From Solirubrobacterales bacterium (GTDB lineage: Bacteria > Actinomycetota > Thermoleophilia > Solirubrobacterales > 70-9), in assembly GCA_021155855.1 (NCBI GenBank), contig JAJNAZ010000001.1:1-64000 (forward strand): a stretch of 64,000 nt of DNA. Direction: 5' to 3'. Both the position numbers and the translations under genes were made by a program. The notes under the pieces were generated by a model that worked only from the letters and a program-made list of their open reading frames with translations, did no database searches and was not told where the DNA came from. Every line of letters begins with the position of its first letter. Position 1 is the stretch's first letter. Positions 229 through 29,033 of the stretch are shown here, piece by piece.

Positions 229-1221
229 TCACGCCCCGGTCTCCACACCGGTCCTCAGCCGCGCGCGCACCGATTCGACGATCGTCTCGGCGTTCGGCAG
301 GAACTCGTCCTCGAGGCTCGGGCTATAGGGGATCGGGGTCTCCTCGGTGGCGACGATCCAGGCGTCGTCGAGGTCGTGGAGCCCCTGCTCGGCGATCGAC
401 CCGAGCAGCCCGGTCGCCCAGCCGCCGACCCGCGGGCCCTCCTCGACCGCGAGCACCCGGTTGGTCTTTGCGACCGAAGTGAGCACGGTCGCGAGGTCGA
501 GCGGGCGCAGTGCGCGCAGGTCGATGACCTCGATTTCGAGCCCGTCGCCGGCGAGCGTGTCCGCCGCCTGCAGGGCGTCGCGAACCCCCTTCGAGATCGA
601 GACGATGGTCAGGTCGCCGCCCTCACGCACGACCGCGGCCTCCTCCAGCGGAACCGTCTCGGAGTCGGGCTCCGGGCCCTTGATCGAGTAGAGGCGCTTG
701 TGCTCGAGGAAGATCACCGGGTTGTCGTCGCGGATCGCCGACTTCAACAGCCCCTTCGCGTCGGCCGGCGAGGACGGTGCGACGACCTTGAGCCCCGGGA
801 TGCCCTGAAGCCAGGTTCCCGGGTTCTGCGAGTGCATTGCCCCGAACCGCCCTCCGGCGCCGACCGCCGAGCGGATCACCAGCGGCGCGCTTCCCTGCTC
901 GTTGGAGACGAACCAGAGCTTTGCCGCCTGGTTGACCAGCGAGTCCATCGGCAGCGCCATGAAGTCGCCGAACATGATCTCGATCACGGGCCTCGTCCCG
1001 GTCGCCGCCGCCCCGAAGGCGGCGCCGGCCAGGGCGAGCTCGGAGATCGGGGTGTCGAAGACCCGATTTGCGCCGAAGCGCTCCTGGAGGCCTGGGGTGA
1101 CCGCGAACACCCCACCCTGCTCCGCGGCGACGTCCTCGCCGAAGAAGAGCACCGACTCGTCGCGCTCGAGCTCCTCGGCGAGCGCGTCGCGGATCGCGAC
1201 CCTGAACTCGAGCTCGCTCAT
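229..1221 (-). CDS. 2-oxoacid dehydrogenase E1 component, beta subunit
   Basis: A 330-residue transketolase-like beta subunit of a TPP-dependent 2-oxoacid (pyruvate, acetoin or branched-chain type) dehydrogenase. Visible family features are the opening MSELEFRVAIRDAL, FFGEDV, the pyrimidine-domain stretch FDTPISELALAGAA and the C-terminal segment VLAVEEGPRVGGW. The ATG at 1221 overlaps the E1alpha stop by 4 bp (ATGA), which fixes the start and implies translational coupling. E1 forms an alpha2beta2 tetramer that decarboxylates a 2-oxoacid and passes the acyl group to E2. The gene is third in an operon led by a hydroxyisobutyrate-dehydrogenase-like gene and preceded by a LacI-type operator. 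An AcoB-like acetoin enzyme and a BkdB/PdhB-like enzyme cannot be told apart by eye. Confidence 0.92.
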   Translation of the reverse strand: MSELEFRVAIRDALAEELERDESVLFFGEDVAAEQGGVFAVTPGLQERFGANRVFDTPISELALAGAAFGAAATGTRPVIEIMFGDFMALPMDSLVNQAAKLWFVSNEQGSAPLVIRSAVGAGGRFGAMHSQNPGTWLQGIPGLKVVAPSSPADAKGLLKSAIRDDNPVIFLEHKRLYSIKGPEPDSETVPLEEAAVVREGGDLTIVSISKGVRDALQAADTLAGDGLEIEVIDLRALRPLDLATVLTSVAKTNRVLAVEEGPRVGGWATGLLGSIAEQGLHDLDDAWIVATEETPIPYSPSLEDEFLPNAETIVESVRARLRTGVETGA

Positions 1222-2228
1222 CCGCTGAACTCCGATCCGGGGCGCTCGCGGGGATCCGGATAGGGAGCGGCGAGCGCGGCCTGCGTCGCGCGCTCCATCT
1301 CCTCCCGGCCCTCGGTCTCGACCGCGGTGACCTCGTCCTCGCCGATCCCGTCCGCGAGCAGGCGCTCGCGGGCGATCGTCAGCGGGTCGCGCGCCAACCA
1401 GCGCTCGAGCTCGTCGTCGGGCCGGTACTTCGCGGGATCGGACTTCGAGTGCCCGTAGTGACGGTAGGTCTGACACTCGAGCAGCGTCGGGCCGCCCTCG
1501 GACCGCGCCCGCTCGACCGCCTCGGTCGCGGCGTCGCGCACAGCCCACAGGTCGTTGCCGTCGACGACCGTGAAGGGGATCTTGTAGGCGCCCGCGCGGG
1601 CGGCGATCTCTCCGCCCGCAGTGACGTTCTCCATCGGCGTGAACTCGCCGTAGAAGTTGTTCTCGCACACGTAGACGACCGGCAGCTCCAGCACCCGGGC
1701 GAAGTTGAGGCACTCGTGGAAGTAGGCCTGGTTTGTGGCGCCGTCGCCGAAGAAGGCGACCGAGACCCGGCCCTGGCGCCGGGCCGAGAGCGCGGCACCC
1801 GTCGCCGCGGCGATGCTGCCGCCGACGATCCCGAAGCAGCCGACCAGCCCGTGCTCGAGGTCGACCACGTTCATCGAGCCGGCGCGACCGCCGCAGACGC
1901 CGCTCGCGCGCCCGAGCATCTCGGCCGCGAGCGCCTCCGGTGCGGTGCCCTTGGCGAGCGCGTGTCCATGGCCGCGATAGGTGCCGCTGACGTAGTCGTC
2001 GGCGTCGAGCGCCATGCAGACCCCGACCGGCACCGCCTCCTGCCCGGCGGAGAGGTGGGTGGTGCCGTGCACCTCGCCCTTCAGGAACAGCCGGTGGATC
2101 GCCTGCTCGAACTCGCGGATCAGCACCATCCGTGCGTAGGCGTCGAGGAAGGCGCCCGGATCGTGCTCGCGCTCAAGCCCTGCGGGCTCCGGCGCCCGCT
2201 CTGTCTCCTGGGCCGGGCGGGCGCTCAA
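1218..2228 (-). CDS. 2-oxoacid dehydrogenase E1 component, alpha subunit
   Basis: A 336-residue TPP-binding E1 alpha subunit. The thiamine-diphosphate motif is seen as GDGATNQAYFHECLNFA, followed by VVYVCENNFYGEFTP, and the N-terminal half has the family segments MVLIREFEQAIHRLF and HLSAGQEAVPVG. The proposed start is TTG at 2228, overlapping the preceding stop as TTGA. The next in-frame ATG would cut into the conserved helix. With E1beta it catalyses TPP-dependent decarboxylation of a 2-oxoacid and reductive acylation of lipoyl-E2. The length and the GDGA...NN pattern fit the AcoA/PdhA-type two-subunit family rather than the single-chain AceE. Its place under the local LacI-type operator suggests a catabolic 2-oxoacid or acetoin dehydrogenase, not the housekeeping enzyme. 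Confidence 0.93.
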   Translation of the reverse strand: MSARPAQETERAPEPAGLEREHDPGAFLDAYARMVLIREFEQAIHRLFLKGEVHGTTHLSAGQEAVPVGVCMALDADDYVSGTYRGHGHALAKGTAPEALAAEMLGRASGVCGGRAGSMNVVDLEHGLVGCFGIVGGSIAAATGAALSARRQGRVSVAFFGDGATNQAYFHECLNFARVLELPVVYVCENNFYGEFTPMENVTAGGEIAARAGAYKIPFTVVDGNDLWAVRDAATEAVERARSEGGPTLLECQTYRHYGHSKSDPAKYRPDDELERWLARDPLTIARERLLADGIGEDEVTAVETEGREEMERATQAALAAPYPDPRERPGSEFSG

Positions 2229-3205
2229 CGGTCGGAGCCCGCGGTCGTCCGGGTCGCGGCCGCGAGCTCGCCGAGCCCGTCGCTGACCTCGGCGTCCTCG
2301 GGCTCGAGCTCGACGCCCGAGGAGCGGGCCTGCTGGTCGAGGAGGGCGGCGAAGTCCTCCTCGGTGCGCCCCTGCGCGATCAGCGCCTGAACCAGCTCTC
2401 GCGCCGCGGCCGCGACCGGCATCGGCACCCCGAGCTCGTCCGCGAGGTCGAAGCCGAGGTCGAAGTCCTTGCGCAGCAGCACCGGCGTGAACGTCGGCGA
2501 GTAGTCGAGCTTGACGAAGGCCGGGGTCTTGTAGCGGCTGAACATCGAGCCCATGACGCTGCGGTTGATGAACTCGAGCAGGTCGGCGCGGGCGATCCCG
2601 CCCTTCTCGGCGAGCACGGTGATCTCCGCCAGCGATTGGGCGACGACGCCGAGCAGCAGGTTGTGGCAGATCTTCGCCAGCCGGGCGCGCTCGCCCTCGC
2701 CGACGTAGGTCGCTCCCTGACCGAGCAGCTCAAGGTACGGGGACACCTGCTCGTAGGCCGCCGCCGGCCCGGAGACGACGATCGTCAACAGCCCGGCGTC
2801 GACGACCTTGGGGTTGCCGCTCACCGGGGCGGCGAGCAGCGCGACGTCGCGCTCCGCAAGCTGGCTGCGAACCTGCGCCGACGCCTCGGGAGAGACCGTG
2901 GTCAGATCGACGATGATCTGCGGGCTCGTCGCCGGGGTCGAGAGCAGCCCCGACGGCCCGACGACGACCTGCTTGAAGTCCTCGGAGCCGGCGACCATCG
3001 TGAAGACGATCTCGCGATCGGCGAGCTCGGCGGGCGAGTCGACCACCGTGGCCCCGAACTCGCGCAGCGGCTCGGCCTTCGCCCGCGTGCGGTTGTAGGC
3101 GGCGACGTCGCAACCCGCTTCGAGCAATCGGCGGGCCAAGCTGTAGCCCATCCGGCCCGTGCCGACCCATCCGAGCCGCCTCCCCGCCAGATCGCCGTCC
3201 TGCAT
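2225..3205 (-). CDS. NAD(P)-dependent beta-hydroxyacid dehydrogenase (3-hydroxyisobutyrate dehydrogenase family)
   Basis: A 326-residue member of the 3-hydroxyisobutyrate / tartronate-semialdehyde reductase family. The N-terminal Rossmann loop is GWVGTGRMGYSLARRL. The substrate loop reads AAPVSGN, with the usual Asp replaced by Ala, and the catalytic-lysine segment reads RLAKICHNLLLG. ATG 3205 is chosen because AGGGAG lies just upstream, and a longer reading would cross the operator. It leads the operon with E1alpha and E1beta (4-bp overlap). Such enzymes interconvert a 3-hydroxyacid and its semialdehyde, so it may supply the oxo-intermediate oxidised further by the 2-oxoacid dehydrogenase. 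A paralogue lies at 31422-32333, under the same type of operator. Confidence 0.88.
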   Translation of the reverse strand: MQDGDLAGRRLGWVGTGRMGYSLARRLLEAGCDVAAYNRTRAKAEPLREFGATVVDSPAELADREIVFTMVAGSEDFKQVVVGPSGLLSTPATSPQIIVDLTTVSPEASAQVRSQLAERDVALLAAPVSGNPKVVDAGLLTIVVSGPAAAYEQVSPYLELLGQGATYVGEGERARLAKICHNLLLGVVAQSLAEITVLAEKGGIARADLLEFINRSVMGSMFSRYKTPAFVKLDYSPTFTPVLLRKDFDLGFDLADELGVPMPVAAAARELVQALIAQGRTEEDFAALLDQQARSSGVELEPEDAEVSDGLGELAAATRTTAGSDR

Positions 3206-3244
3206 CGAAAGTCTCCCTAGTTCGTCGTAGTTGCGGGGCCCGTC

Positions 3245-3258
3245 TGCAATCGTTTGCA
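3245..3258. promoter_or_regulatory. LacI-family operator O1
   Basis: TGCAATCGTTTGCA, a near-perfect inverted repeat around a central CG, as is typical of LacI/PurR-type repressors. It begins 5 bp downstream of the -10 of the leftward promoter (-35 TTGACG, -10 TAGGCT), so a bound repressor would cover the start site of the dehydrogenase/E1 operon. Confidence 0.85.
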
Positions 3259-3263
3259 CCCGT

Positions 3264-3293
3264 AGCCTAACCAAAGCTGCCGGGGCCCGTCAA
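3264..3293 (-). promoter_or_regulatory. Sigma70-type promoter of the hydroxyacid dehydrogenase-E1-E2 operon
   Basis: Read on the minus strand: -35 TTGACG (3288-3293), 18-bp spacer, -10 TAGGCT (3264-3269). The operator 3245-3258 follows within 5 bp, at the expected transcription start. Confidence 0.65.
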
Positions 3294-3326
3294 GCGGCCC
3301 TTTGATGATCGTCCGGGTACACTAGC

Positions 3327-3340
3327 TGCAAACGATTGCG
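3327..3340. promoter_or_regulatory. LacI-family operator O2
   Basis: TGCAAACGATTGCG, the same pseudopalindrome as the other sites. It lies between a TACACT -10-like hexamer (3318-3323) and the ribosome-binding GGAGG (3340-3344) of the rightward M24-M24-aldehyde dehydrogenase operon, sharing one base with the GGAGG. No good -35 box was found for this direction. Confidence 0.8.
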
Positions 3341-3349
3341 GAGGTTGCG

Positions 3350-4756
3350 ATGGGACTCCCCACATACGGGCTGATGGGCGTCGACTGGGAGCAGCGAGTG
3401 CAGCTCGACCGGCTGCGCTCAGAGCGCCTGGGGCGGATCTCGAGGCTGCTCGCCGACTCCGAGCTCGGGGCACTCCTGTGCTTCGACATGACCAACATCC
3501 GCTACATCACCGCGACCCACATCGGCACCTGGGCCCAGGACAAGCTCAACCGCTTCTGTCTCTTGCCCCAGAGCGACCAGCCGATCATGTGGGATTTCGG
3601 TTCCGCCGCCCGCCACCACCAGCTCTACAACCCGTGGCTGGGCGAGGAGCGCTCGCGGGCCGGGATCTCGACCCTGCGAGGGGCGATGGCGCCGGAGGCC
3701 GGGCGGGCCGAGAACGTGGCCGAGAAGATCCGCGTCGAGCTCGCCGAGCGCGACCTGCTCTCGGAGCCGATCGGCGTCGACGCGGTCGAGCCCGCCGTCC
3801 TGTTCGCGCTCCAGGCCGCCGGGATCGAGGTCGTCGACGGCCAGCAGCTGATGCAGGAGGCGCGGGTGATCAAGAGCGAGGACGAGGTCACGCTGCTGAA
3901 CACCGCCTGCATGATGGTCGACGCGGCATACGAGGAGCTCTATCGCCAGATGCGCCCCGGGATGCGCGAGAACGAGTGCGTCGGCCTGGTCAACAAGGTC
4001 CTCTACGACATGGGCTCGGAGTTCGTCGAGGGGGTGAACGCGATCTCCGGCGAGCGCTGCAACCCCCACCCCCACGTCTACACCGACCGCACTTTGCGCC
4101 CGGGCGACCCCGCCTACTTCGACATCCTGCACAGCTTCATGGGCTACCGGACCTGCTATTACCGCACCTTCGCGGTCGGTAGCGCCTCGCGCAGCCTGGT
4201 CGACGCCTACAAGCGCTGTCGCTTCCATCTCGACGCCGCGATCGAGCTGATCCGCCCCGGGGTCACCACGGCCGATGTGGTCCAGGTCTGGCCGCGGGCC
4301 GAGGAGTTCGGCTTTGCCGACGAGGAGGCCGCGTTCGCGCTCCAGTTCGGCCACGGTGTCGGGCTCGCGATCTGGGAGAAGCCGATCTTCTCGCGGCTCG
4401 TCTCGCTCGACCATCCGGAGGAGATCCGGGAGGGGATGGTGTTTGCGCTCGAGACGTTCTGGCCGGCGTCCGACGGCTGGTCGGCAGCACGGATCGAGGA
4501 GCAACTCGTGGTCACCAAAGACGGCTGCGAGGTGATCACCCGCTTTCCGGCCGAGGACCTGGTGATCGCCGGCCGGCCCTATTACACGGTTGGCGGCTCG
4601 CTGCCGCTGCAGCGGGAAACGCAGTCGAATCTCAACACGCGACTCGACGCCGACAGCCAGGAGGCGATCCCGGCCGCCGGCCAGCCGCCGATCGGGGACG
4701 GGCGCGGGGCCGATCGGCTGCCGAGCGGCGACCGCGGCGCCGCATCGATCCGTTGA
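3350..4756 (+). CDS. M24-family (creatinase/DddP-like) hydrolase with degenerate metal site
   Basis: A 468-residue pita-bread-fold protein: creatinase-N-like domain (about 20-165), M24 catalytic domain (about 175-425), and a polar low-complexity tail. Phrases such as GALLCFDMTNIRYIT and GERCNPHPH resemble the creatinase/DddP branch more than true aminopeptidase P. Of the five M24 metal ligands, Asp258, His335, Glu368 and Glu383 are present, but the second Asp is Cys269 (GYRTCYYRTF against the usual GY-S-D--TRTF). A dinuclear-metal peptidase is therefore unlikely. A creatinase-like C-N hydrolase or an unusual mononuclear enzyme is possible. ATG 3350 follows GGAGG. The stop overlaps the start of the next M24 gene, so the pair may form a hetero-oligomer. 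Confidence 0.82.
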   Translation: MGLPTYGLMGVDWEQRVQLDRLRSERLGRISRLLADSELGALLCFDMTNIRYITATHIGTWAQDKLNRFCLLPQSDQPIMWDFGSAARHHQLYNPWLGEERSRAGISTLRGAMAPEAGRAENVAEKIRVELAERDLLSEPIGVDAVEPAVLFALQAAGIEVVDGQQLMQEARVIKSEDEVTLLNTACMMVDAAYEELYRQMRPGMRENECVGLVNKVLYDMGSEFVEGVNAISGERCNPHPHVYTDRTLRPGDPAYFDILHSFMGYRTCYYRTFAVGSASRSLVDAYKRCRFHLDAAIELIRPGVTTADVVQVWPRAEEFGFADEEAAFALQFGHGVGLAIWEKPIFSRLVSLDHPEEIREGMVFALETFWPASDGWSAARIEEQLVVTKDGCEVITRFPAEDLVIAGRPYYTVGGSLPLQRETQSNLNTRLDADSQEAIPAAGQPPIGDGRGADRLPSGDRGAASIR

Positions 4757-5952
4757 GCGCACCCGCAGCCACAGCCGGCGCCACGTTCGCCGAGGGCTAC
4801 CCCCGGTTCAGCGACGGGGAGATGGCGGCGCGGGCAGCGCGGCTCGATGCGGTGCTCGCCGAGCACGACGCCGAGCACGCGCTCGTCTACGGCGCCAACC
4901 GCTTCGGATCCGGGGTCGGCTGGCTGACCGGCTGGCCGGTGACCCGCGAAGCGCTGGTCGTCCACTCGCCTGGCGATCAGGACCTGCTGCTGGTCAACTT
5001 CTACAACCACGTGCCCAACGCGCGCCGGATCGCAGCCCGGGCGCGGGTCGAGTGGGCCGGCGAGGACGCGGTCGAGACCGCGACCGCCGAGCTGCGCCGC
5101 CGGGGCGCCTCCGCCGCGACGACGATCGCGGCGATCGGGCCACTGAGCCACGGGGCGTTCGAGCGCCTCGGCGAGCTCGCGACGACGATCGACCTCGGGC
5201 GCGAGTACGCGCGCGCTCGCCTGGTGAAGTCCGAGGAGGAGATCGAGTGGACGCGGATCGCCGCCGCGATGACCGACGATGCGGTGGCTGCGGTGCGCGA
5301 TCGCGCCGTCCCCGGGACCAGCGAGCCTGAGCTCGCCGACGCGGTCGAGCGTGCCTACGTCGCCCGCGGCGGGGCCACCCACATCCACTACTTCGGCGCC
5401 ACGCCGATGGCCGAGCCCGGCATCTGCGCCCCGGCCCAGTGGCCGTCGACGCGCGAGCTGTGCAGCGGCGACGCGCTCAGCTGCGAGATCAGCGCCTCGT
5501 GGTGGGGCTATGCGGCGCAGCTGCTGCGCACGTTCGCCGTCGACGCCGAGCCGACCCCGCTCTATCGCGAGCTGCACCAGGTCGCCGAGGCCGCCTTCGA
5601 AGCGATCGTCTCGGTGCTGCGACCCGGCGCCACGGCGGCCGAGCTGATCGAGGCCTCCGGCGTGATCGAGGACGCCGGCGACACGATCCGCGACGACCTC
5701 GTGCACGGCTTCGTCGGCGGATATCTGCCACCGGTCCTCGGCTCGCGCAGCCGCGCGCTGGCCGCGGTGCCGGCGTTCGAGTTCGAGGCCGGGATGATGG
5801 TCGTGGTGCAGCCGAACGTGGTCACCACCGACGAGAGCGCCGGCGTGCAGACCGGCGAACTGATGCTGGTGACCGAGCACGGCGCGGAGTCGATGCACGA
5901 CTTCGAGCGCGGACTGCTCGCCGCCGGCGCCCAGCAACGACGAGGAGGATGA
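4753..5952 (+). CDS. M24-family (creatinase-like) protein lacking the metal ligands
   Basis: A 399-residue second M24-fold protein, starting at TTG 4753, which overlaps the previous stop as TTGA. It keeps the two-domain creatinase/aminopeptidase-P layout. At the canonical ligand positions it has Glu245 for the first Asp, Gln256 for the second (GYAAQLLRTF), Gln353 for a Glu (VVQPN) and Gly368 for the last Glu. Only His318 (VHGFVGGY) is retained. In this superfamily creatinase works without metal, so this is probably a metal-independent hydrolase or a non-catalytic partner of the upstream M24 protein. The aldehyde dehydrogenase gene follows after 1 bp. The substrate is unknown. Confidence 0.82.
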   Translation: MSAPAATAGATFAEGYPRFSDGEMAARAARLDAVLAEHDAEHALVYGANRFGSGVGWLTGWPVTREALVVHSPGDQDLLLVNFYNHVPNARRIAARARVEWAGEDAVETATAELRRRGASAATTIAAIGPLSHGAFERLGELATTIDLGREYARARLVKSEEEIEWTRIAAAMTDDAVAAVRDRAVPGTSEPELADAVERAYVARGGATHIHYFGATPMAEPGICAPAQWPSTRELCSGDALSCEISASWWGYAAQLLRTFAVDAEPTPLYRELHQVAEAAFEAIVSVLRPGATAAELIEASGVIEDAGDTIRDDLVHGFVGGYLPPVLGSRSRALAAVPAFEFEAGMMVVVQPNVVTTDESAGVQTGELMLVTEHGAESMHDFERGLLAAGAQQRRGG

Positions 5953-5953
5953 G

Positions 5954-7474
5954 ATGCCCGCAGACGGAGCGGCCACCGAGACCCTGACCGAGCCAGTGAC
6001 CGGCGCCCCGGCGCGCGGCGCCTTCGTCGACGGCGCCTGGCTGGCGCCCGCGGGCAAGGAGACATTCGCGGTCGTCGAGCCGGCGACCGCGACCGAGCTC
6101 GCCCGCGTCGCCGCCTGCGGCCCGGCCGAGGTCGACGCGGCGGTTGCGAGCGCCGCGCGCCGCTTCGCCGAGGACTGGCGCTGGCGCTCCCCGCGCGAGC
6201 GCGGGGCCCTGATGCGGGAGGTCGCGGCCCTAATCCGCGAGCACGTCAACGAGCTCGCCGAGCTCGAGGCGCGCGAGGTCGGAAAGCCCCGGCGCGACGC
6301 CCTGCGCTTCGACGTCTCCTTCAGCCACGCCGGCTTCGACTACTTCGCCGGGCTCGCCGACACCCTGCACGGCGAGATCCTCGACCAGGGGCCGATCGAG
6401 GCGCGGGTGATCTACGAGCCCTACGGCGTGGTGGCCGCGATCCTGCCCTTCAACTGGCCGCCGATCCACTTCACGAAGAAGTGCGCGCCGGCGATCGCCG
6501 CCGGTAACACGGTGGTGATCAAGCCCGGCGAGCAGGCTCCGCTGAGCGTCCTGCGCCTGGTCGAGATCGCGAACGAGGTGCTGCCTCCGGGCGTAATCAA
6601 CGCGGTCTCGGGGATGGCCGCCGGGGCGACGCTCGCCGGCCATCCGGGCGTCAGCCGGATCACCTTCACCGGCTCCACCGCCACCGGGCGCCGAGTGCTG
6701 GAGACGGCGGCCCAGAACCTGACCTTCGCGACCATGGAGCTCGGCGGCAAGAACGCGCTGTTGGTGCTCGAGGACGCCGATCTCGACGTCGCGATCGACG
6801 TCGCGCTCGAGGGCATGTACTACAACCAGGGCGAGGCCTGCACCTCGACCGCCCGCATCCTCGTCCACGACTCGATCCACGACGAGTTCTGCGCGCGCTT
6901 CGCGCGGGCGACCGAGCGGCTCGTCGTCGGCGACCCGCTCGATCCGAGCACCGACGTCGGCCCGATGGTCGACGAGCGCCAGCGCGATCGGGTGCTCGAC
7001 TACCTGCGGATCGGCCTCGACGAGGGCGCGCGGATGGTCACCCAGGGCGAGCTCCCCGACGACGAGCGGCTCGGCGACGGCTACTGGGTCGCGCCGACGG
7101 TGCTCGCCGATGTGCGCCCCGAGATGCGGATCGCCCGGGAGGAGATCTTCGGGCCGATCGCCTGCCTGATCCGCTTCGGTGACGAAGAGGAGGCCTTGGC
7201 GATCGCCAACGGCACCGAATACGGCCTCACGGCGGCGATCTGCACCCGCGACGAGGCCCGCGCCGCGCGCATCGCGGCGCGGCTAGAGGCGGGGATGGTG
7301 TTCGTCAACAACTACATGCGACGGGCGTTCCTCGGCTCGCCCTTCGGGGGCGTGAAGGCGAGCGGCTTCGGGCGCGAGAACGCGGCCGAGACGCTGTACG
7401 AGTTCGTGCGCTCGAAGAACGTCCGCTTCCCCTCTGGGCGGGGGCAGATCCCGACCTGGCCCCCGCGCGACTGA
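5954..7474 (+). CDS. NAD(P)-dependent aldehyde dehydrogenase
   Basis: A 506-residue aldehyde dehydrogenase superfamily enzyme. Seen in order: PFNWPPIHF (about 165), the nucleotide-loop FTGSTATG (about 238), catalytic Glu262 in MELGGKNA, catalytic Cys296 in NQGEACTS, and EEIFGPI. It oxidises an aldehyde or semialdehyde to the acid in the cytoplasm. The overall pattern is like betaine-aldehyde, aminomuconate-semialdehyde and other catabolic ALDHs, and the exact substrate cannot be assigned. It is the third gene of the operator-controlled M24-M24-ALDH operon, which suggests it oxidises a semialdehyde released by the hydrolases. It ends 4 bp before the converging alpha/beta hydrolase gene. An AGGAGG upstream supports ATG 5954. 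Confidence 0.93.
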   Translation: MPADGAATETLTEPVTGAPARGAFVDGAWLAPAGKETFAVVEPATATELARVAACGPAEVDAAVASAARRFAEDWRWRSPRERGALMREVAALIREHVNELAELEAREVGKPRRDALRFDVSFSHAGFDYFAGLADTLHGEILDQGPIEARVIYEPYGVVAAILPFNWPPIHFTKKCAPAIAAGNTVVIKPGEQAPLSVLRLVEIANEVLPPGVINAVSGMAAGATLAGHPGVSRITFTGSTATGRRVLETAAQNLTFATMELGGKNALLVLEDADLDVAIDVALEGMYYNQGEACTSTARILVHDSIHDEFCARFARATERLVVGDPLDPSTDVGPMVDERQRDRVLDYLRIGLDEGARMVTQGELPDDERLGDGYWVAPTVLADVRPEMRIAREEIFGPIACLIRFGDEEEALAIANGTEYGLTAAICTRDEARAARIAARLEAGMVFVNNYMRRAFLGSPFGGVKASGFGRENAAETLYEFVRSKNVRFPSGRGQIPTWPPRD

Positions 7475-7478: not shown

Positions 7479-8534
7479 TCAGCCGAGTTGCTCGCCGAGC
7501 CAATCGGCGAGCAGCGGCCGGTAGCGGTAGGCGACGTTGTTGCAGACGTGGTTGCCCTCCTCATAGAGGACGAAGGAGGCGTTGGGGGCGTCCTCGGCAA
7601 CCCGCTTGGTCGAGGCCCACGGGATCACCCGGTCGAGCTTGCCGGTGACCACCAGCAGAGGCTGTGAGATCCGCTCCGCGACCCCGGCGAGGTCGAGCTC
7701 CCGCGCGCGCTCGCGGGCGGTTTCGAGGTCGGGTGAGCGCGAGTAGTGAGCGAAGGACTCCCGGGTCAGGATCGGAAGCTCGTCCCAGAGCTCGCCGAAA
7801 TTGCGCGGCCCAGAGACACCGGCGACCGCGCGCAGCCTCGGCTCGAAGGCCGCGGCGCGCGGGGCGTAATAGCCGCCGAGGCTGACGCCGGCGGCGCCGA
7901 CCCGATGGAGGTCGAGATCGTCGCGGCGCTCGAGCACGTCGAGCATCGACGCGACCGCGACCTCATAGTCGGGGCGGATCGGGTTCTCGAAGCCTCCCTC
8001 GCCCTGGCCGGGCCCGTCGATCGACAGGGTCGCGAGGCCGCGGTCGAGGAAGACGCGCTCGAAGTTGAAGAACTCCTCCTTGGTCGAGTCGAGCCCCGGG
8101 ATGAGGAGGACGAGCGGCGGACGCGCAAGCTCCTGCGGACGCCGCAGGTTGCCGATCACGGCCGTGCGCTCGAGTGGCGCCTCGATCCGCTCCGCGGTCG
8201 AGTCGAGCAGCCGGTGCGCCGCGTAGAGGGCGTCGCGGGCCCTGACCGTGGTCTCGCGATTGCGGTCGGGATCGACGACCCAGACGTACTTGGCGAAGTG
8301 GAAGCAGAGCGCCGCGCGCACGAACGCCTCGCCGGCGGTGCGCTCGCGACCGGCTGACTCGGCCTCGCCGGCGAGCCGCAGGTGCAACTCGGCCGTCCTG
8401 CACCAGGCATCCAGCCAGTCGTCCCAGCGCTCGATCTGTGCCGTCGTGCGGACGAAATCGTTGTAATCGACCCCCTGGGTGACCATCCGCGGCGCCCAGT
8501 TGTCGATCGCCGCCTGGACCCGCGCGTCAGGCAT
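7479..8534 (-). CDS. Alpha/beta hydrolase, 2,6-dihydroxypseudooxynicotine hydrolase-like
   Basis: A 351-residue alpha/beta hydrolase with a long N-terminal helical part (about 1-125) and the core behind it. The nucleophile Ser218 is in GVSLGGYYA, Asp301 in TGKLDRVIP and His329 in EEGNHVCNN. Glu248 sits in NFGELW. This Ser/Glu/Asp/His set lies at almost the positions I recall for the C-C bond hydrolase of nicotine catabolism, 2,6-dihydroxypseudooxynicotine hydrolase, and the overall layout agrees. FrsA/DUF1100-type esterases share the fold, so substrate identity is inference. It is the last gene of the nine-gene ABC-importer/oxidoreductase operon and overlaps the amidohydrolase gene by 8 bp. 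Confidence 0.85.
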   Translation of the reverse strand: MPDARVQAAIDNWAPRMVTQGVDYNDFVRTTAQIERWDDWLDAWCRTAELHLRLAGEAESAGRERTAGEAFVRAALCFHFAKYVWVVDPDRNRETTVRARDALYAAHRLLDSTAERIEAPLERTAVIGNLRRPQELARPPLVLLIPGLDSTKEEFFNFERVFLDRGLATLSIDGPGQGEGGFENPIRPDYEVAVASMLDVLERRDDLDLHRVGAAGVSLGGYYAPRAAAFEPRLRAVAGVSGPRNFGELWDELPILTRESFAHYSRSPDLETARERARELDLAGVAERISQPLLVVTGKLDRVIPWASTKRVAEDAPNASFVLYEEGNHVCNNVAYRYRPLLADWLGEQLG

Positions 8535-9528
8535 CGACCGTGCTCATGACCAGGCGCTCGGCGTTGGCGCCGAGAATCGCCGCCTCGTCGTCGCGGGGGA
8601 GCCCCAGCGACCTGACCGTCGCCGCCGGGTCGGGGTCGGCCATGTCGAACGGGTAGTCGGAGCCGAGCAGAACGCGGTCGGCGCCGGCCCAGTCGATCAG
8701 CGCCCGCAGCAGCTCGCGGTCGTGGGTGACGGTGTCGAAGCGAAAGCGCCTGATCGACGCGAGCGGCGACTCCGACAGCTCGGAACGGGCGTCGGGTTGG
8801 AAGCTGTGCGCGTGGCGCAACCGGCCGCGCAGCGCGAGCAGGGCGCCGCCGCCGTGGGCGAGGACGACGCGCAGCCCCCGATGGCGCTCGAGCACCCCCG
8901 CCATCGTCATCTGCGCCGCGGCGATCGTCGTCTCGAGCGGGTTGCCGACCGCGTTCCAAAGGTAGTGGCGTCCGAACACCGGCGCGTCGAAGCCGCGCGT
9001 CGTCGGGTGCACGAAGACCAGCGCCTCGGTGCGCTCGGCCGCCGCCCAGAAGGGCCCGAAGCGCGGATCACCGATGTAGACGCCCCCGACGCTGGCGCTG
9101 ACCTCGACCCCGGCCAGCGCCCCGGCGGACCGCAGCGCGCCGAGCTCGGCGGCGGCGAGCTCGGGGTCCTGAAGCGGCACCGCTCCGAGCGCCGAGATCC
9201 GGTCCGGCACCGCCGTCACGATCCCGGCCAGCGCCTGGTTCTGGATCCGGCAACGCTCGAGGCACGCCGCGGGCTCGACCTCGGGGTAAAGCAGCGGCAC
9301 CCAGGGCGAGAGCAGCACGCGATCAATTCCGAGCCGCGCCTGGCAGGCGAGGATCGTCTCGACGTCGACCACCTCCCGGGTCATCGAGCGCACCTCGCGG
9401 CCGTCGAGCTCGACCAGCTGCTCGCCGCCCACGCGCCGCACGCGTGGGCGCCAGCCCTCGCCGCCGTTGCGGCCCTTGCGCAGGATCTCCGGGACGATCA
9501 CGTGCGCATGGACGTCGGTGACGGTGAC
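8527..9528 (-). CDS. Amidohydrolase-2 family (ACMSD-like) metal-dependent hydrolase or decarboxylase
   Basis: A TIM-barrel amidohydrolase of the PF04909 type, about 333 residues. The metal-binding HxH is in TDVHAHVI at the very N-terminus, a later ligand is in VLAHGGGAL and the catalytic Asp in LLGSDYPFD. Family members hydrolyse or non-oxidatively decarboxylate ring-cleavage and aromatic acids (aminocarboxymuconate-semialdehyde decarboxylase, gamma-resorcylate decarboxylase). The start is odd: no ATG, GTG or TTG lies in frame close upstream of the HxH. A near-perfect Shine-Dalgarno (AGGAGGTGATC) ends 2 nt before an in-frame GTC at 9526-9528, used here as provisional start. The GTG at 9501 would lose the metal motif, and the next upstream start, at 9675, lies 178 bp inside the FAD gene. 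Confidence 0.8.
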   Translation of the reverse strand, partial: VTVTDVHAHVIVPEILRKGRNGGEGWRPRVRRVGGEQLVELDGREVRSMTREVVDVETILACQARLGIDRVLLSPWVPLLYPEVEPAACLERCRIQNQALAGIVTAVPDRISALGAVPLQDPELAAAELGALRSAGALAGVEVSASVGGVYIGDPRFGPFWAAAERTEALVFVHPTTRGFDAPVFGRHYLWNAVGNPLETTIAAAQMTMAGVLERHRGLRVVLAHGGGALLALRGRLRHAHSFQPDARSELSESPLASIRRFRFDTVTHDRELLRALIDWAGADRVLLGSDYPFDMADPDPAATVRSLGLPRDDEAAILGANAERLVMSTVDA

Positions 9529-11102
9529 GCGATCACCTCCTCGAGGTGGCGATTGCGATCGGCCAGAGCGACGATCGCCGCGTTGCGGCCCGGAGCCCCG
9601 GTGATCGAGCCGCCGGGGTGAGTGGTGCCGCCGGTCTGGTAGAGGCCCTCGATCGGCATCCGATGCTGCCCCCACCCCGGCACCGGGCGCGTGCCCCCGA
9701 TCTGGCCCGGACCGCGGTGGCCGCCGTGGAAGGTGCCGTGGATCATGTGGCGGTTCGAGCGCTCGATGTCCTCGGGGCTCTTCACCAGCCGGGCGACGAT
9801 CGCCTCGTCCTCGAGGCCTTCGGCCACCGCCCGGACCCGCTCCAGCTGTCGATCCGCCTGGCGCAGCTTGAGCTCGTCCCAGCCTCGCTCGCCCGCGGGC
9901 GGTCGCCAGGCCTGGCCGCTGAGCAGCTTGACCGTGTGATGACCCGCCGGCGCCCGGGAGGGATCGGCGAGGGTCGGCGTCGCGACCAGCAGCCAGGCCG
10001 GGTCGGGGTCATAGACGCCGTCGCGAAGCCGGCGCCCGTGATCGAGCATCTGCTGAGGCCAGCCCGCGAGGCCGGCCGAGACCGCGTTGCGGGCCCCGTC
10101 GGGGGTGCGGAAGCTCGGCGGGCTCGTCGTCGCCAGATAGACGGCGAAGCCCGAGAGACCGAGGTCGTAGGTGCGAACGCCGTAGAGAAAGTCCTCGCCC
10201 CAGGCCTCCGCCGGGGCCATCTCGACCAGGTGCTTGACGTGGATCGTCGAGACGACGCCTTCCCGGGCGCGGAAGCGCTCACCGTCCTCGGTCTCCACCC
10301 CGACGCAGCGCCCGCCCTCGAGCAGCAGCCGCGACACCGTTCGATCGCAGAGCACGCTGCCGCCGTCGTCGACGATCGAGCGCACGAGCGCGTCGGTGAG
10401 CCGTCCGGAGCCCCCCTCGGGCAGGGTCCAGCCGCGGCGCTGGCGCCCGAAGACGATCGAGTAGGCGAGCGGGCCTGAGCCCGTCGCGTCGACCGGGACC
10501 AGGGTCTGAAACGCCTGCCAGAGCATGAACGCCTGCACGTGGGGACTCTCGAACTCGGTGCGAACGACGTCCCAGGCGCTCATCATCCGCCGCCGCTCCC
10601 AGCGGCGTCCGTCGGGATGCTCGGCGAGCATCCGCTCGAGCGAGGGCCCGAACCCCGGCGGCGTGAACCTGCTGGCGCCGAACAGGTGCTTGACCGCGTC
10701 GTAGTCGGCGATCAGCCGCCGGTAGGCGTCGGCGTCGCGGCGCGAGAACCGTTCGAGCTCCTCGCAGCTGCGCTCGAGATCGAGCCACATCGTCAGCTGG
10801 CGGCCGTCGGGGAAGGCAACGTGCGCGAACGGGTCGGGCTCGATGTAGGCGAGCCCGTAGCGCTCCCGCAGCCCGAGCTCGTCCTCGCGCAGCAGCGGGT
10901 TGGTCTGGATCAGCGTATGGCCGGTCGAGCACGAGTCGATCAGATACCCGGGCTCGAGCATCTCTTCCGAGGCCGCGCCGCCGCCGGGGATCGGGCGCGC
11001 ATCGAGCACCACCACCTCGTAGCCCGCCCGGGCGAGATAGGCCGCGGTGATCAGGCTGTTGTGGCCCGCCCCGGCGACCACGAAGTCGGCGCTCGCGGAC
11101 AT
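9498..11102 (-). CDS. FAD-dependent oxidoreductase, phytoene desaturase/PYROXD2-like
   Basis: A 534-residue flavoprotein. The ADP-binding loop is VVAGAGHNSLITAAYLARAG at residues 7-26, and the C-terminal FAD signature is GLYQTGGTTHPGGSITGAP. This is the amine-oxidase/phytoene-dehydrogenase fold (CrtI-like), but carotenoid genes are absent, so it more likely oxidises or desaturates the substrate of this locus. ATG 11102 shares one base with the preceding stop (TGATG). The gene lies mid-operon after the HAAT importer, EamA transporter and MDR oxidoreductase and before the amidohydrolase. The electron acceptor and true substrate cannot be read from the sequence. Confidence 0.88.
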   Translation of the reverse strand: MSASADFVVAGAGHNSLITAAYLARAGYEVVVLDARPIPGGGAASEEMLEPGYLIDSCSTGHTLIQTNPLLREDELGLRERYGLAYIEPDPFAHVAFPDGRQLTMWLDLERSCEELERFSRRDADAYRRLIADYDAVKHLFGASRFTPPGFGPSLERMLAEHPDGRRWERRRMMSAWDVVRTEFESPHVQAFMLWQAFQTLVPVDATGSGPLAYSIVFGRQRRGWTLPEGGSGRLTDALVRSIVDDGGSVLCDRTVSRLLLEGGRCVGVETEDGERFRAREGVVSTIHVKHLVEMAPAEAWGEDFLYGVRTYDLGLSGFAVYLATTSPPSFRTPDGARNAVSAGLAGWPQQMLDHGRRLRDGVYDPDPAWLLVATPTLADPSRAPAGHHTVKLLSGQAWRPPAGERGWDELKLRQADRQLERVRAVAEGLEDEAIVARLVKSPEDIERSNRHMIHGTFHGGHRGPGQIGGTRPVPGWGQHRMPIEGLYQTGGTTHPGGSITGAPGRNAAIVALADRNRHLEEVIASPSPTSMRT

Positions 11103-12122: not shown

Positions 12123-12995
12123 TCATTCCCCGACGATCAACAGCAGCGAGCCGACGATCACCAGCCCTGCCCCGGCCCAGATCTTGGGGGTCACGATTTC
12201 GACGTGACGGCCGGAGATCAGCGGCGCCGCGACCAGCACCACCGGCACCGCGAGCAGCTGCAGGGCGAGCACCGCCCCGACCGACGCGTCGTCGAGCGCC
12301 ACCCAGCGACCCCAGGTGGCGATCCCGACGATCAGGCCGGCGAGCAGCTTCAGGTTGAGCGCGCCCCGGTCGCCGAGCCGGATCGGCTCGGAGGTGAACG
12401 GAAGCAGCGCCCCGTAGGCGACGGTCGAGGCCAGCATGCCGACCGTGACGCCGAGCAACGGCGAGTCGAATCCCTCCAGCCCCTCGACCGTCAGCACCGC
12501 GCTCAGCGCCCACGCGCAGGCCGTGGCCAGGGCGAAGATCGAGTCCGAGAGCGCGGCCCGCTCGCCGGCGCCGGGATCGGCGACCAGGTAGGCGCCGGCG
12601 ATCGTCAACGCGATTCCGACCGCAGCCAGCTCGCCCGGGAGCTGGCTGGCGACCAGCGCCGCAAAGAAGACGCCGAACAGCGGGCTCGTGGAGAGCAGCG
12701 GGCTGGTGCGCGCGGCGCCGATGCGCGCCTGGCTGATGTTCAGGGTCGTCCAGCCGACGAAGAAATGCACCAACCCGGCGAGGGCGAAGGCGATGATCCC
12801 CCAGGCGGTGGCGTCGGCGAGCGCGGAGAGGTCCTCCGTAACCGCCGAGGCGATCGCCAGCACGACGGTCGCCAGCACCAGCTGCAGGAAGGTCGAGAAG
12901 TAGATGCTGTCGAGGTCGCGGACGGCGCGGGCGTTGAGCGCCTGAAAGAGGCCGAATCCCGCTCCCGAGAGGGCCGCCCATCCGGCTCCGCTCAC
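12123..12995 (-). CDS. EamA/DMT-family transporter
   Basis: A 290-residue, strongly hydrophobic protein with about ten predicted membrane helices in two five-helix halves, each resembling an EamA domain. GTG 12995 overlaps the LivF stop by 4 bp (GTGA). Drug/metabolite transporters export or exchange amino acids, nucleobases and other small metabolites. Here the gene is inserted between an ABC importer and catabolic oxidoreductases of the same operon, so it may export a by-product or act as an exchanger. No substrate evidence exists in the sequence. Confidence 0.85.
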   Translation of the reverse strand: MSGAGWAALSGAGFGLFQALNARAVRDLDSIYFSTFLQLVLATVVLAIASAVTEDLSALADATAWGIIAFALAGLVHFFVGWTTLNISQARIGAARTSPLLSTSPLFGVFFAALVASQLPGELAAVGIALTIAGAYLVADPGAGERAALSDSIFALATACAWALSAVLTVEGLEGFDSPLLGVTVGMLASTVAYGALLPFTSEPIRLGDRGALNLKLLAGLIVGIATWGRWVALDDASVGAVLALQLLAVPVVLVAAPLISGRHVEIVTPKIWAGAGLVIVGSLLLIVGE

Positions 12996-13747
12996 GCTCT
13001 CGACGCCGTCGGGGACGGCGCCTTGGTCGGCGTTCCCCCGAAGAACAGATCGGTCATCTCCGGGTTGTTGAGCACCGCGTCGGCGCGATCGTGCATGAGC
13101 ACGCGGCCGCTCTCCATGACCACGCCGTGGGTCGACATCCGGAGGCCGAAGCGGACGTTCTGCTCGACCACCAGCAGCGTCTTGCCGGCCTCGACCATGC
13201 GCTTGATCGCCGCGGCGACCACCTTGAGCGCCTTCGGGTCGAGGCCGACGGAGGGCTCGTCGAGCATCACGAGCGCCGGATCGAGCATCAGCGAACGCGC
13301 GAACTCGACCGAGCGCCGCTGACCGCCCGACAGGTTGCCGGCGCGCTCGTCGGGGCGGTCGCCGACCAGCGGGAACAGCTCGGCCACCTCGGCGTAGCGA
13401 CGCTCGATCAGCTTGCGCTCGCGACGCGCGATGTAGGCGCCCATGAGGACGTTCTCGCGCACCGAGAGGTTCGCGAACAGGCCATCGCTCTGGGGGACCT
13501 GCGTGGCCCCGAGCTCGAGGATCTCCTCCGGCGGCCGGCCATGGATCTCACGGCCCTCGTAGGTGATCGTGCCCTCACGTGGACGGAGCAGGCCGCTGAT
13601 CGCGCGCAGCACGGTGGACTTCCCGGCTCCGTTGGGACCGACGATGCAGGTCACCGAGCCGGCATCGACGGTCAGATCGACGCCCTGGAGGACGTCGCCG
13701 GCGCCGTAGCCGGCCACCACCCCGTCGAGATGCAGCATCGCGGTCAC
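12992..13747 (-). CDS. livF: HAAT-type ABC importer, ATP-binding protein LivF-like (system 1)
   Basis: A 251-residue ATPase. Walker A is GPNGAGKST, the ABC signature LSGGQRRSVEFARSLM, Walker B LVMLDEP, and the H-loop position carries Gln (VVEQN), as is usual for LivF. It pairs with the LivG half of the LivM-LivG fusion to power uptake of branched-chain amino acids, amides, urea or other carboxylates. GTG 13747 overlaps the upstream stop as GTGA. The next candidate start is ATG 13738. The gene is fourth in the operon from the binding protein at 17765. Confidence 0.93.
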   Translation of the reverse strand: MTAMLHLDGVVAGYGAGDVLQGVDLTVDAGSVTCIVGPNGAGKSTVLRAISGLLRPREGTITYEGREIHGRPPEEILELGATQVPQSDGLFANLSVRENVLMGAYIARRERKLIERRYAEVAELFPLVGDRPDERAGNLSGGQRRSVEFARSLMLDPALVMLDEPSVGLDPKALKVVAAAIKRMVEAGKTLLVVEQNVRFGLRMSTHGVVMESGRVLMHDRADAVLNNPEMTDLFFGGTPTKAPSPTASRA

Positions 13748-15564
13748 GGCGCTCCCACCGGTTCCTCGAGCTTGAAGTCGGCGCCGAGGTAGGCGTCGAG
13801 GACCTGCGGGTCCCGCTGGATCTCGTCGGGCGCGCCGGCGCAGATGCACTCTCCGGACGCGAGCACGAGGACGGGGTCGCAGAGGCCGAGCACGAGCGGC
13901 ATGTTGTGCTCGACGATGAGGAAGGTCTTGCCGCGTGCGTTGAGCTCGCGAATCATGTCCGCGATCCGCGCGATCAGCGTCGGGTTGATGCCCCCCGCAG
14001 GCTCGTCGAGGAGGATCAGCTTCGGATCGAGCATCAGCACCTGGGCGAGCTCGACCAGCTTCCGCTGCCCGAACGAGAGCGCTTCGGCGCGCTCGTCGCG
14101 GTACTCCGCCATGCCGGCGAACGCGAGCAGGTCATCCGCCCGGGCAGCCTCCTCCCCGCTCACGGCGCCGGCGCGAAGCTGGCGCCAGGAGAAGCTGCGC
14201 AGCGGGGCGACGACGTTCTCGAGCACCGTCATGTCGGTGAACACGCGGGTGATCTGGAAGGTCCGCCCGAGGCCCGCGTAGGCGCGGCGCCACGGTGGCA
14301 GCCGGTCGATCCGCTCGCCGTCGAACCAGACCTCGCCGGCGTCCGCGCCCATCGTGCCGCCGATCAGGTTGAAGGCGGTGGTCTTGCCGGATCCGTTGGG
14401 CCCGATCAGGCCGGTGATAGTCCCCGCCTCGACCGCGAACGAGCACCCGTCGAGCGCTCGCACGCCCTCGAAGTGCTTGTGCAGGCCCCTGACCTCGAGC
14501 AGGTTCTGACCGGTGCCTCCCGTCGCCGTCGCCGGTTTTCCGTCGAGGGCCCGCCGCTCGCCCAGGCGACCACCGACGAGCGCCGCCCTGCCCCGCTTCG
14601 CGCGCCGCTCCAAGAAGTCGCGGACCGACGGGATGATGCCCTTCGGCAGCAGCAGGATCGTCAGCACCAGCAGCCCGCCGAAGATCAACAGTCGCGAGTT
14701 GCCGCCCCCGAACTCCTGGTTTGCGAGCTCGTTCAGCGGCTCGATCGTCGCCGCGCCGAGCACCGGGCCCCAGAGCGTCCCGCGCCCGCCGAGAATCACC
14801 GCGAGGATGATCTGGACGCTGATCACGATGTCGAACATCGCGATCGGGTCGATGAAGGCGATGTAGTACCCGTAGACGCCGCCGGCCATGCCGAGGAAGA
14901 CGGCACTGGCCATGAAGCCGATGATCTTGTAGACGGGGGTATCGATGCCGACGGTCGCCGCCTTGTCCTCGTCCTCGCGGATCGCGAGCAGGCCGGTGCC
15001 GATCTTTGTCCGACGGATCCACCAGGAGAGCAGAAGAGAGGCGCCGAGCAGGGCGATGAGCGTGTAGTAGAAGGGCCAGTTTTGGATCGAGATGTCCCAC
15101 GTCGGCAGGGGCACGGTGATCCCGCTCGTGCCCTGGGTGAGCGAGTCCCAGTTGATCGCGACGATCTGGAGGATGAACAGCGCCGCGATCGTGATGATCA
15201 CGAACGCGAAGCCGCGGGTTCGCATCGCGATCACTCCGAGCAGCGCGGCGAACAGCGCCGCGATCACCCCCGCGAGCGGGATCCAGACGAACGGGTCGCC
15301 GCCGATCCGCGTCGAGGCGATGCCAACCGTGTAGGCGCCGAGGCCGATGAATGCGCTCTGGCCAAGCGAGATGTACCCCGCGTAGCCCATGATGATGTTG
15401 AGCCCCACCGCGCCGATCGCCAGGATCAGCGAGAGGATGATCATGTTCTGGTAGAAGAGGTCGTCGAAGAACAGGGGGTAGGTGACCAGCAGCAGCGCGG
15501 CGACCGCGATCAGCCCGCGCCAGAGCCTGCGATCGAGGCCGGTGCGCTCGAGCGCACCGGTCAT
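13744..15564 (-). CDS. HAAT-type ABC importer, LivM permease-LivG ATPase fusion (system 1)
   Basis: A 606-residue fusion. Residues about 15-320 are a LivM-type permease with 8-10 membrane helices (GYAGYISLGQSAFIGLGAY, later LAVILGGRGTLWGP). Residues about 355-600 are a LivG ATPase with Walker A GPNGSGKT, the LivG hallmark GLGRTFQITRVF, signature LSFGQRKLVELAQ, LLDEPAGGINP and H-loop VEHNM. A charged linker of about 35 residues joins them in one uninterrupted frame. ATG 15564 overlaps the LivH stop by 4 bp. In the second system (21118-24556) LivM and LivG are separate genes. Such fusions are known in this family, but here the two arrangements coexist. Confidence 0.93.
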   Translation of the reverse strand: MTGALERTGLDRRLWRGLIAVAALLLVTYPLFFDDLFYQNMIILSLILAIGAVGLNIIMGYAGYISLGQSAFIGLGAYTVGIASTRIGGDPFVWIPLAGVIAALFAALLGVIAMRTRGFAFVIITIAALFILQIVAINWDSLTQGTSGITVPLPTWDISIQNWPFYYTLIALLGASLLLSWWIRRTKIGTGLLAIREDEDKAATVGIDTPVYKIIGFMASAVFLGMAGGVYGYYIAFIDPIAMFDIVISVQIILAVILGGRGTLWGPVLGAATIEPLNELANQEFGGGNSRLLIFGGLLVLTILLLPKGIIPSVRDFLERRAKRGRAALVGGRLGERRALDGKPATATGGTGQNLLEVRGLHKHFEGVRALDGCSFAVEAGTITGLIGPNGSGKTTAFNLIGGTMGADAGEVWFDGERIDRLPPWRRAYAGLGRTFQITRVFTDMTVLENVVAPLRSFSWRQLRAGAVSGEEAARADDLLAFAGMAEYRDERAEALSFGQRKLVELAQVLMLDPKLILLDEPAGGINPTLIARIADMIRELNARGKTFLIVEHNMPLVLGLCDPVLVLASGECICAGAPDEIQRDPQVLDAYLGADFKLEEPVGAP

Positions 15565-16442
15565 ACGGCGACGTCCTCTCGCAGCCTGGTCCCCATCAGA
15601 CCCTGGGGACGGAAGAAGAGGACGAGGAAGATCAGCACGTAGGGGACCGCGGTCGCCCAGGCCGTGGAGATGTACGTCTGCGTGTAGACCTCGGCGAGGC
15701 CGAGCAGCATCGCGCCGATCACCGCCCCTTGGAGGCTGCCGAGCCCGCCGAGCACGATGATGCTCAGCACGCGGGCGATCCAAATGTAGTGGGAGCCGGG
15801 CAGGAACGGATAGAGGACCGAGACCATCGAGCCGGCGGCGCCGACGGTCGCGATCCCGACCGCGAAGGTGAGCGCGCTCACCTTCGCGATGTTGACCCCG
15901 ACAAGGGCCGCCCCCTGCACGTTGGCCGATGCGGCCCGGATCGCGCGGCCGGTCCAGGTCCGGTTCAGGAACAGCCAGAGCAGGGCGAGGACGAGGACCG
16001 CGACGATGCTGGCGTACACCTGCGCCTTCGGCAGGACGATGCCCGAGAGGTCGAAGGACTGGTCGAAGTACGACGGTCGCGCGGAGCGCGAGTTGTTGCC
16101 CCAGGCGAGCCCCATCACCGCTTCGCAAACGAGCGCCAGGCCGAAGGTGAGCAGCACCGTCGACGAGAGCGGGGCCGAGCGCAGCGGCCCGATCATCGTC
16201 CGGTAGATGAGCCAGCCGAGCACGAACATTGCCGGGGTCGTGATCACGATCGACGCCAGCGGATCGATGCCGAGCTGCTCCCACAGGGTGAAGGCGAGGA
16301 AGGCGCCGAGGATCAGCAGCGCCCCGTGAGCGATGTTGATCACCTTCATCACTCCGAAGATCAGCGTCAGCCCGGAGGCGAACAGGGCGTAGACGCCGCC
16401 GATCAGGAGGCCGAACGCCGTGGCTTGGATGAACTCGGTCAT
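15561..16442 (-). CDS. livH: HAAT-type ABC importer, permease LivH-like (system 1)
   Basis: A 293-residue integral membrane protein with about eight helices. It has the LivH opening pattern FGLLIGGVYALFASGLTL followed by VMKVINIAHGALLILGAF, and the loop IVLGGLGSLQGAVIGA near the C-terminus. It forms the translocation pore with the LivM half of the fusion. The start ATG 16442 is 75 bp after the binding-protein gene. That gap holds a strong stem-loop (16467-16504) likely to lower permease expression relative to the binding protein. Confidence 0.93.
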   Translation of the reverse strand: MTEFIQATAFGLLIGGVYALFASGLTLIFGVMKVINIAHGALLILGAFLAFTLWEQLGIDPLASIVITTPAMFVLGWLIYRTMIGPLRSAPLSSTVLLTFGLALVCEAVMGLAWGNNSRSARPSYFDQSFDLSGIVLPKAQVYASIVAVLVLALLWLFLNRTWTGRAIRAASANVQGAALVGVNIAKVSALTFAVGIATVGAAGSMVSVLYPFLPGSHYIWIARVLSIIVLGGLGSLQGAVIGAMLLGLAEVYTQTYISTAWATAVPYVLIFLVLFFRPQGLMGTRLREDVAV

Positions 16443-16466
16443 CGCTGCGGCCGTGCTTGAGGCTCA

Positions 16467-16504
16467 GCGGCGACCGCGGGGTGCTCGTACCCCGCGGTCG
16501 CCGC
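16467..16504 (-). terminator. Strong intercistronic stem-loop after binding protein 1
   Basis: A perfect 15-bp GC-rich stem (16467-16481 with 16490-16504) with an 8-nt loop, located between the binding-protein stop and livH. There is no T-tract. In ABC-importer operons such hairpins act as partial terminators or 3' stabilisers that keep the binding protein in excess. Confidence 0.75.
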
Positions 16505-16517
16505 CTCCATGCCTTCC

Positions 16518-17765: not shown

Positions 17766-17854
17766 CACGTACCTCCCAGCACGTCGCGGCCGTTCCCGAT
17801 CGCGGGGCGACCGCTTATCTCCTCCGCTCCGACCCGATCGGGCCGCGAGTCCGT

Positions 17855-17868
17855 TGCAATCGTTTGCT
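17855..17868. promoter_or_regulatory. LacI-family operator O3a (distal of tandem pair)
   Basis: TGCAATCGTTTGCT. It abuts and shares base 17868 with the next site, giving 13-bp centre-to-centre spacing. Both lie between the promoter and the start codon of binding protein 1. Confidence 0.8.
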
Positions 17869-17881
17869 GCAAACGTGTGCA
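17868..17881. promoter_or_regulatory. LacI-family operator O3b (proximal to promoter)
   Basis: TGCAAACGTGTGCA, 3 bp downstream of the -10 hexamer of the leftward promoter. The same sequence recurs at 26449-26462 in the same position relative to its promoter. Confidence 0.8.
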
Positions 17882-17884
17882 AAC

Positions 17885-19236: not shown

Positions 19237-19256
19237 CCTCGTTTACCTCCTGTTTC

Positions 19257-29017: not shown

Positions 29018-29033
29018 CAGCTCTCCTCGATCC

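Follow-up and report, generated by a model that had tools for sequence, protein, structure and literature searches.

Background

The pita-bread fold of family M24 is found in metallopeptidases with a set of five ligands (Asp, Asp, His, Glu and Glu) and also in enzymes of other chemistry. DddP demonstrates that this fold is capable of elimination, while the metal-free members DoeA and creatinase cleave C-N bonds. Creatinase performs C-N hydrolysis without a metal, with His232 as catalytic histidine. The metal-binding residues of DddP are Asp295, Asp297, Asp307, His371, Glu406 and Glu421, and its active sites are formed at the dimer interface (PMC4108388).

Here, two neighbouring M24 genes of a Solirubrobacterales bacterium, termed A and B, are analysed together with their surroundings in a stretch of 64,000 nucleotides (contig JAJNAZ010000001.1, positions 1 to 64,000; the window). 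No prior description of family A or family B was found in the open-licence literature. Homologues of both proteins came from three sources, namely a sample of genomes representing the order and the phylum, contigs of GTDB, and plasmids. Phylogenetic trees were calculated with 46 and with 33 M24 proteins.

Results and discussion

Protein A

Gene A (3350..4756, forward strand) codes for a protein of 468 amino acids belonging to a DddP-side family, as judged from Pfam Peptidase_M24 (PF00557; 121.7 bits, cut-off 23), homologue columns and a fold model. In agreement with the initial annotation, four of the five ligand positions are retained: the M24 ligand columns are occupied by Asp258, Cys269, His335, Glu368 and Glu383 (D-C-H-E-E versus D-D-H-E-E in M24 metallopeptidases), and the catalytic-His column still holds a histidine (His240). 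All but one of 46 distinct homologues of A, from several phyla, share the D-C-H-E-E pattern, the odd one being a Nitrospinota protein of 30 % identity with the canonical D-D-H-E-E.

By sequence, the nearest solved relative of A is DddP (RlDddP 4rzy, RdDddP 4b28; E 4e-28). The columns of DddP residues Asp295, His371, Glu406 and Glu421 are kept in A, whereas Asp307 is replaced by Cys269, the Asp297 column does not contain Asp, and Tyr366 and Asp377 (mutated in 4s00/4s01) are not conserved. The NCBIfam DddP model NF043017, with a cut-off of 600 bits, yields 131.9 bits for A and 24 for B. A role of A as DMSP lyase is ruled out by these residues and this score. The fold model of A (pLDDT 60) retrieved DddP 4s00 at rank 1 in Foldseek; VIA-align did not separate DddP from prolidases, probably due to the weakness of the model. 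In the trees, A groups with DddP-like proteins (support 100/100; 100/96 in the smaller tree). Protein A is best read as a DddP-side M24 metalloenzyme in which the metal-bridging Asp is replaced by an invariant Cys and which would still bind metal. Since four ligands and the catalytic-His column are retained, the label "semi-active" given to A in the initial annotation is too weak.

Another DddP-like M24 protein, encoded on pSymA of Sinorhizobium meliloti (L117:3878-5862), possesses the full ligand set and its gene overlaps an isochorismatase-family gene; at 316.6 bits against the DddP cut-off of 600, it is probably a further uncharacterised catabolic enzyme of family M24.

Protein B

Gene B (4753..5952, forward strand) has a TTG start and codes for 399 amino acids, the assignment being based on Pfam Peptidase_M24 (80.8 bits, cut-off 23), conserved columns and a fold model. 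The pita-bread M24 domain is present in A as well as B according to PF00557 and fold searches. Of the metallopeptidase ligands only the His is left in B, as had been noticed initially: the columns read Glu245, Gln256, His318, Gln353 and Gly368 (E-Q-H-Q-G). Glu369, located beside Gly368, was considered as a shifted ligand and ruled out, as homologues have D, S or A at this position. The catalytic-His column is occupied by Ala228, is variable within the family and is followed by the near-invariant Gln229. Homologues of B range over Actinobacteriota, Betaproteobacteria, Nitrospinota and haloarchaea, and E-Q-H-Q-G is found in 16 of the 18 whose sequence extends over the site, the other two displaying E-Q-H-E-G and, in a distant protein, E-L-H-E-G. 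Further near-invariant residues are Pro227, Arg259, His318-Gly319 and Gln353-Pro354-Asn355, as well as Asn85-His86 in homologues having the N-domain. A sequence error behind the ligand changes of A and B is ruled out by their conservation across phyla.

The fold model of B (pLDDT 82, pTM 0.82) was compared by VIA-align and gave DoeA as top structural match (Z 36.7, 2.6 Å over 357 residues) in a near tie with metal-dependent Xaa-Pro dipeptidase (prolidase; Z 36.1) and creatinase (1chm, 7yto; Z 35.2), i.e. metal-free and metal-dependent members rank equally close. B resembles DoeA/EutD in the loss of metal ligand columns, in the Glu of the first column and in the catabolic gene cluster. The DoeA of an annotated ectoine cluster (L118), however, carries E-P-Y-M-T at the ligand columns and hence differs from B in the other four, and B scores only 35.6 and 40.2 bits with the NCBIfam models TIGR02993 and NF038259 (cut-offs 613 and 575, respectively). 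These scores, far under the cut-offs, place B outside the DoeA family. With creatinase, B shares the common fold, and the B profile matches it over the full length (E 2e-16 to 4e-17). The column that probably corresponds to the creatinase His, in contrast, is Ala, Pro or Gly in the B family (Ala228 in B itself) in an alignment of M24 proteins other than creatinase, and creatine-type neighbours are absent around B. As the His column used by creatinase is probably missing, creatinase chemistry cannot be copied directly onto B.

In the trees, B forms a clade of its own (support 100/99-100) outside the DddP-like group, and A and B are not sisters. Grouping of B with DoeA (83/80) is obtained with an Aminobacter protein in the tree and is lost once this long branch is removed. 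The Aminobacter protein itself (L122:2554-3705) has E-T-Y-E-I at the ligand columns and may represent an independent ligand loss. Altogether, B resembles the metal-free C-N hydrolases of the M24 fold while standing outside the DoeA family and probably also outside creatinase, the two known families. Metal-free C-N hydrolysis, brought up in the initial annotation with reference to creatinase, is a sound reading of B.

A catalytically dead B, serving as ligand binder in the sense of a sensor, a carrier or an allosteric partner of a pathway protein, would agree with the retention of one ligand out of five and with the missing catalytic His; moreover, non-enzymatic M24-fold proteins exist, with Spt16 among the fold matches and LmaPA2G4 as a further case. 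Such a role is nevertheless unlikely, considering that the polar pocket columns Glu245, Gln256, His318, Gln353, Asn355 and Arg259 are invariant over phyla, that catabolic enzymes are encoded nearby, and that DoeA is a catalytic example of such a site.

Gene arrangement and co-occurrence of A and B

The stop codon of A and the TTG start of B share TTGA at 4753-4756, resulting in an overlap of 4 nt, and an aldehyde dehydrogenase gene starts at position 5954, 2 nt past the end of B; the overlap and the directly following dehydrogenase were thus correctly described before. The latter (5954..7474, forward strand; Pfam Aldedh, 526 bits) codes for a protein similar to BADH and 2-hydroxymuconate-semialdehyde dehydrogenase, and is located after A also in genome G019.

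Gene A was detected in 30 and gene B in 8 of 396 Actinobacteriota genomes. All eight B genomes also possess A (Fisher p 4e-10 against 30/396, a statistic that ignores phylogeny), and A is found without B in 22 of its 30 genomes. The spread of B outside Actinobacteriota is thin: among 398 genomes of the phylum of the B-containing Betaproteobacterium (G534), B occurs only in this bacterium itself. In G159, a pair of B-family genes was observed at a spacing of about 3 kb (L026:7614-8981 and 11797-13191), with genes for LacI and a spermidine-type importer nearby, possibly reflecting duplication and divergence.

The initial annotation had regarded it as plausible that A and B are the subunits, one semi-active and one inactive, of an obligate heterodimer. 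The gene overlap in this genome, the presence of A in every B genome of the Actinobacteriota sample, and the formation of sites at the dimer interface in M24 enzymes of such size (PMC4108388) are in line with this proposal. The numerous A genomes devoid of B and the position of both proteins in different parts of the tree nevertheless render it very improbable. Among genomes with both genes, the overlap is restricted to the present one: A and B are convergent in the nearest relative, a member of the same genus (G098), separated by the aldehyde dehydrogenase gene in G019 and by a zinc-type dehydrogenase gene in G034, 27-31 kb apart in G159 and G524, and located on separate contigs in G328, G235 and the Betaproteobacterium. 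Furthermore, B of Haladaptatus adjoins an aldehyde dehydrogenase gene and has no close A. The invariant Asn-His of the B N-domain would be anticipated in a homodimer that, like creatinase and DddP, is self-sufficient. Of the initial interpretation, the view of both proteins as conserved but altered members of the M24 fold with a catabolic context is upheld.

LacI-type operators

The pattern GCAANCGNTTGC occurs seven times in the window, where 0.06 occurrences are expected for the 12-mer core. The longer pattern TGCAANCGNTTGC matches the same seven places and none elsewhere in the 2.83-Mb genome, all of them located at 3.2-32.4 kb of the window (3246-32398). Two LacI-type operators, GCAATCGTTTGC (3246-3257) and GCAAACGATTGC (3328-3339), are positioned between the divergent operons of A and a beta-hydroxyacid dehydrogenase (HIBDH) in the region 3244..3342, to which no strand is assigned. 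A further one (29035-29046) lies at the start of the gene for a LacI-family regulator (27962..29038, reverse strand; Pfam LacI and Peripla_BP_3), and the putative site in the form TGCAANCGNTTGCA is a candidate target of this protein, which probably binds the operators of its genome.

Three importers likewise have an operator on their 5' side, two being of the branched-chain type and one of the NMT1 type. Among these operators are the site at 17856 upstream of genes for a liv-type permease, ATPases, a Peripla_BP_6 binding protein and an EamA protein (12123..17882, reverse strand), and that at 21050 upstream of an NMT1/THI5-type ABC importer (18166..21066, reverse strand). The site at 32387 precedes genes for another beta-hydroxyacid dehydrogenase and for a member of the FAA hydrolase family (30339..32636, reverse strand). 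Besides the LacI gene, the regulon outlined by the operators includes an MFS transporter and three ABC importers. Just outside of it, a protein combining an AbiEi-type N-terminal region with a DUF559/endonuclease-like C-terminal region is encoded at 37188-38162.

In other genomes, the operator recurs directly upstream of A (G019, G034, G159, G524 and G282) or directly upstream of B (G207, G235 and G282). It does so even where the two genes are unlinked, namely at both genes in G282, at A in G159 and G524, and at B in G207 and G235. Based on this recurrence and on the confinement of all seven sites to the window, A and B share one regulon. This dedicated common operator also bears on the question whether A and B are broad peptidases or prolidases that have drifted and reside in the cluster by chance, as the M24 fold and the Xaa-Pro annotations of relatives might suggest. 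Both proteins indeed share fold and domain layout with prolidase and aminopeptidase P (M24B), but have lost the five-ligand set, their specific substitutions being fixed across whole clades with no scatter of patterns among orthologues. Neither of them groups with YpdF or PepP in the trees, and no orthologue with a full five-ligand set was found in such an operon; the two observations regarded beforehand as potentially refuting the initial interpretation, i.e. placement among aminopeptidases P and such an orthologue, were therefore not made. Taken together, drift of ordinary peptidases is scarcely credible.

Genomic neighbourhood

Upstream of A, and on the reverse strand, genes are located for the beta-hydroxyacid dehydrogenase of the 3-HIBDH/tartronate-semialdehyde-reductase type (2225..3274; Pfam NAD_binding_2 and NAD_binding_11), which adjoins A in several genomes, and for the alpha (1218..2228; Pfam E1_dh) and beta (229..1263; Pfam Transket_pyr and Transketolase_C) subunits of a TPP-dependent 2-oxoacid dehydrogenase E1. 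These belong to a recurring A module made up of E1 alpha/beta and two further dehydrogenases (succinate-semialdehyde type and beta-hydroxyacid) with changing importers adjacent, which was detected in more than 20 genomes and additionally on plasmids of Rhodobacterales and Streptomyces. Annotated plasmids with the whole or a partial module are those of Phaeobacter, Pacificitalea, Streptomyces and Paenarthrobacter. In the window, the contig ends just past E1 beta (1-229), so that module genes, such as those for the succinate-semialdehyde dehydrogenase and LacI found in G019, may be missing. The Paenarthrobacter plasmids (L048 and L051) carry family A together with flavin reductases, RidA and acyl-CoA-dehydrogenase-like oxidoreductases, the flavin reductase of L051 bearing the annotation SulR (sulfonamide pathway).

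Downstream of the aldehyde dehydrogenase gene, three genes are encoded on the reverse strand. The first (7479..8534) codes for an alpha/beta hydrolase of the FrsA/2,6-dihydroxypseudooxynicotine (DHPON) hydrolase type (closest solved relative 2jbw, E 1e-48), homologues of which are also encoded near B in G019, G207, G328 and G378. The second (8527..9621) codes for an amidohydrolase_2/ACMSD-type decarboxylase (closest solved relatives ACMSD, E 1e-41), and the third (9498..11101, boundaries approximate) for an FAD-dependent oxidase of the CrtI/amine-oxidase type with a homologue (L024:14346-15941) assigned to Pfam Amino_oxidase/DAO. In haloarchaea, B is accompanied by isochorismatase and asparaginase genes besides the aldehyde dehydrogenase gene (Haladaptatus), or by genes for a cyclase and amidohydrolases (Haloarcula), and in the Betaproteobacterium by a gene for a molybdenum-hydroxylase flavoprotein. 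The DHPON-hydrolase-like and ACMSD-like proteins, the FAD oxidase, the haloarchaeal amidohydrolases and the molybdenum-hydroxylase flavoprotein suggest that the compound broken down is an N-heterocycle or an amide.

The same cluster contains a relative of C-C hydrolases, the ACMSD-type decarboxylase and the FAA-hydrolase-family protein, and together with the elimination performed by DddP this could speak for B as a metal-free lyase or C-C hydrolase instead of a C-N hydrolase. In view of the cleavage of C-N bonds by DoeA and creatinase, the known metal-free members, and of the hydrolysis of amides by the haloarchaeal neighbours, we consider a lyase or C-C hydrolase quite unlikely.

Proposed roles of A and B

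With a chance just above even, the full set of observations is explained by A and B acting as separate enzymes, rather than subunits, of one LacI-regulated catabolic regulon. Protein A would be a hydrolase or lyase with Asp258, His335, Glu368, Glu383 and probably Cys269 as metal ligands and with assistance by His240, and may catalyse, within the widespread core module, a step common to several pathways. Protein B would be metal-independent and work like ectoine hydrolase or creatinase, its most likely reaction being the cleavage of a C-N bond, be it amide, lactam or amidine, in a ring-derived intermediate that would be specific to the B-type pathway. Candidate catalytic residues are Glu245, Gln256, His318, Gln353 and Asn355, and in the presumed homodimer the site would be closed by Asn85-His86 from the N-domain of the partner subunit. 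The compound entering the pathway is most likely a small molecule that is N-heterocyclic or carries an amide.

It is conceivable, if somewhat doubtful, that A represents an M24 lineage with a conserved metal-bridging thiolate and B a new metal-free class with a Glu/Gln/His/Gln site, both operating in an undescribed N-heterocycle pathway of Actinobacteriota under a dedicated LacI regulator, with one or both proteins occurring also in other bacteria and haloarchaea.

Conclusions

Public names for A and B such as "Xaa-Pro peptidase family protein" are contradicted by the active sites of both proteins, which represent two routes of the M24 fold away from peptidase chemistry. Should the conserved Cys in the metal-bridging position of A indeed serve as ligand, this would be an uncommon feature among M24-fold proteins. 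The common LacI-type operator bounds the set of genes within which the substrate and the intermediates of the pathway may be sought.
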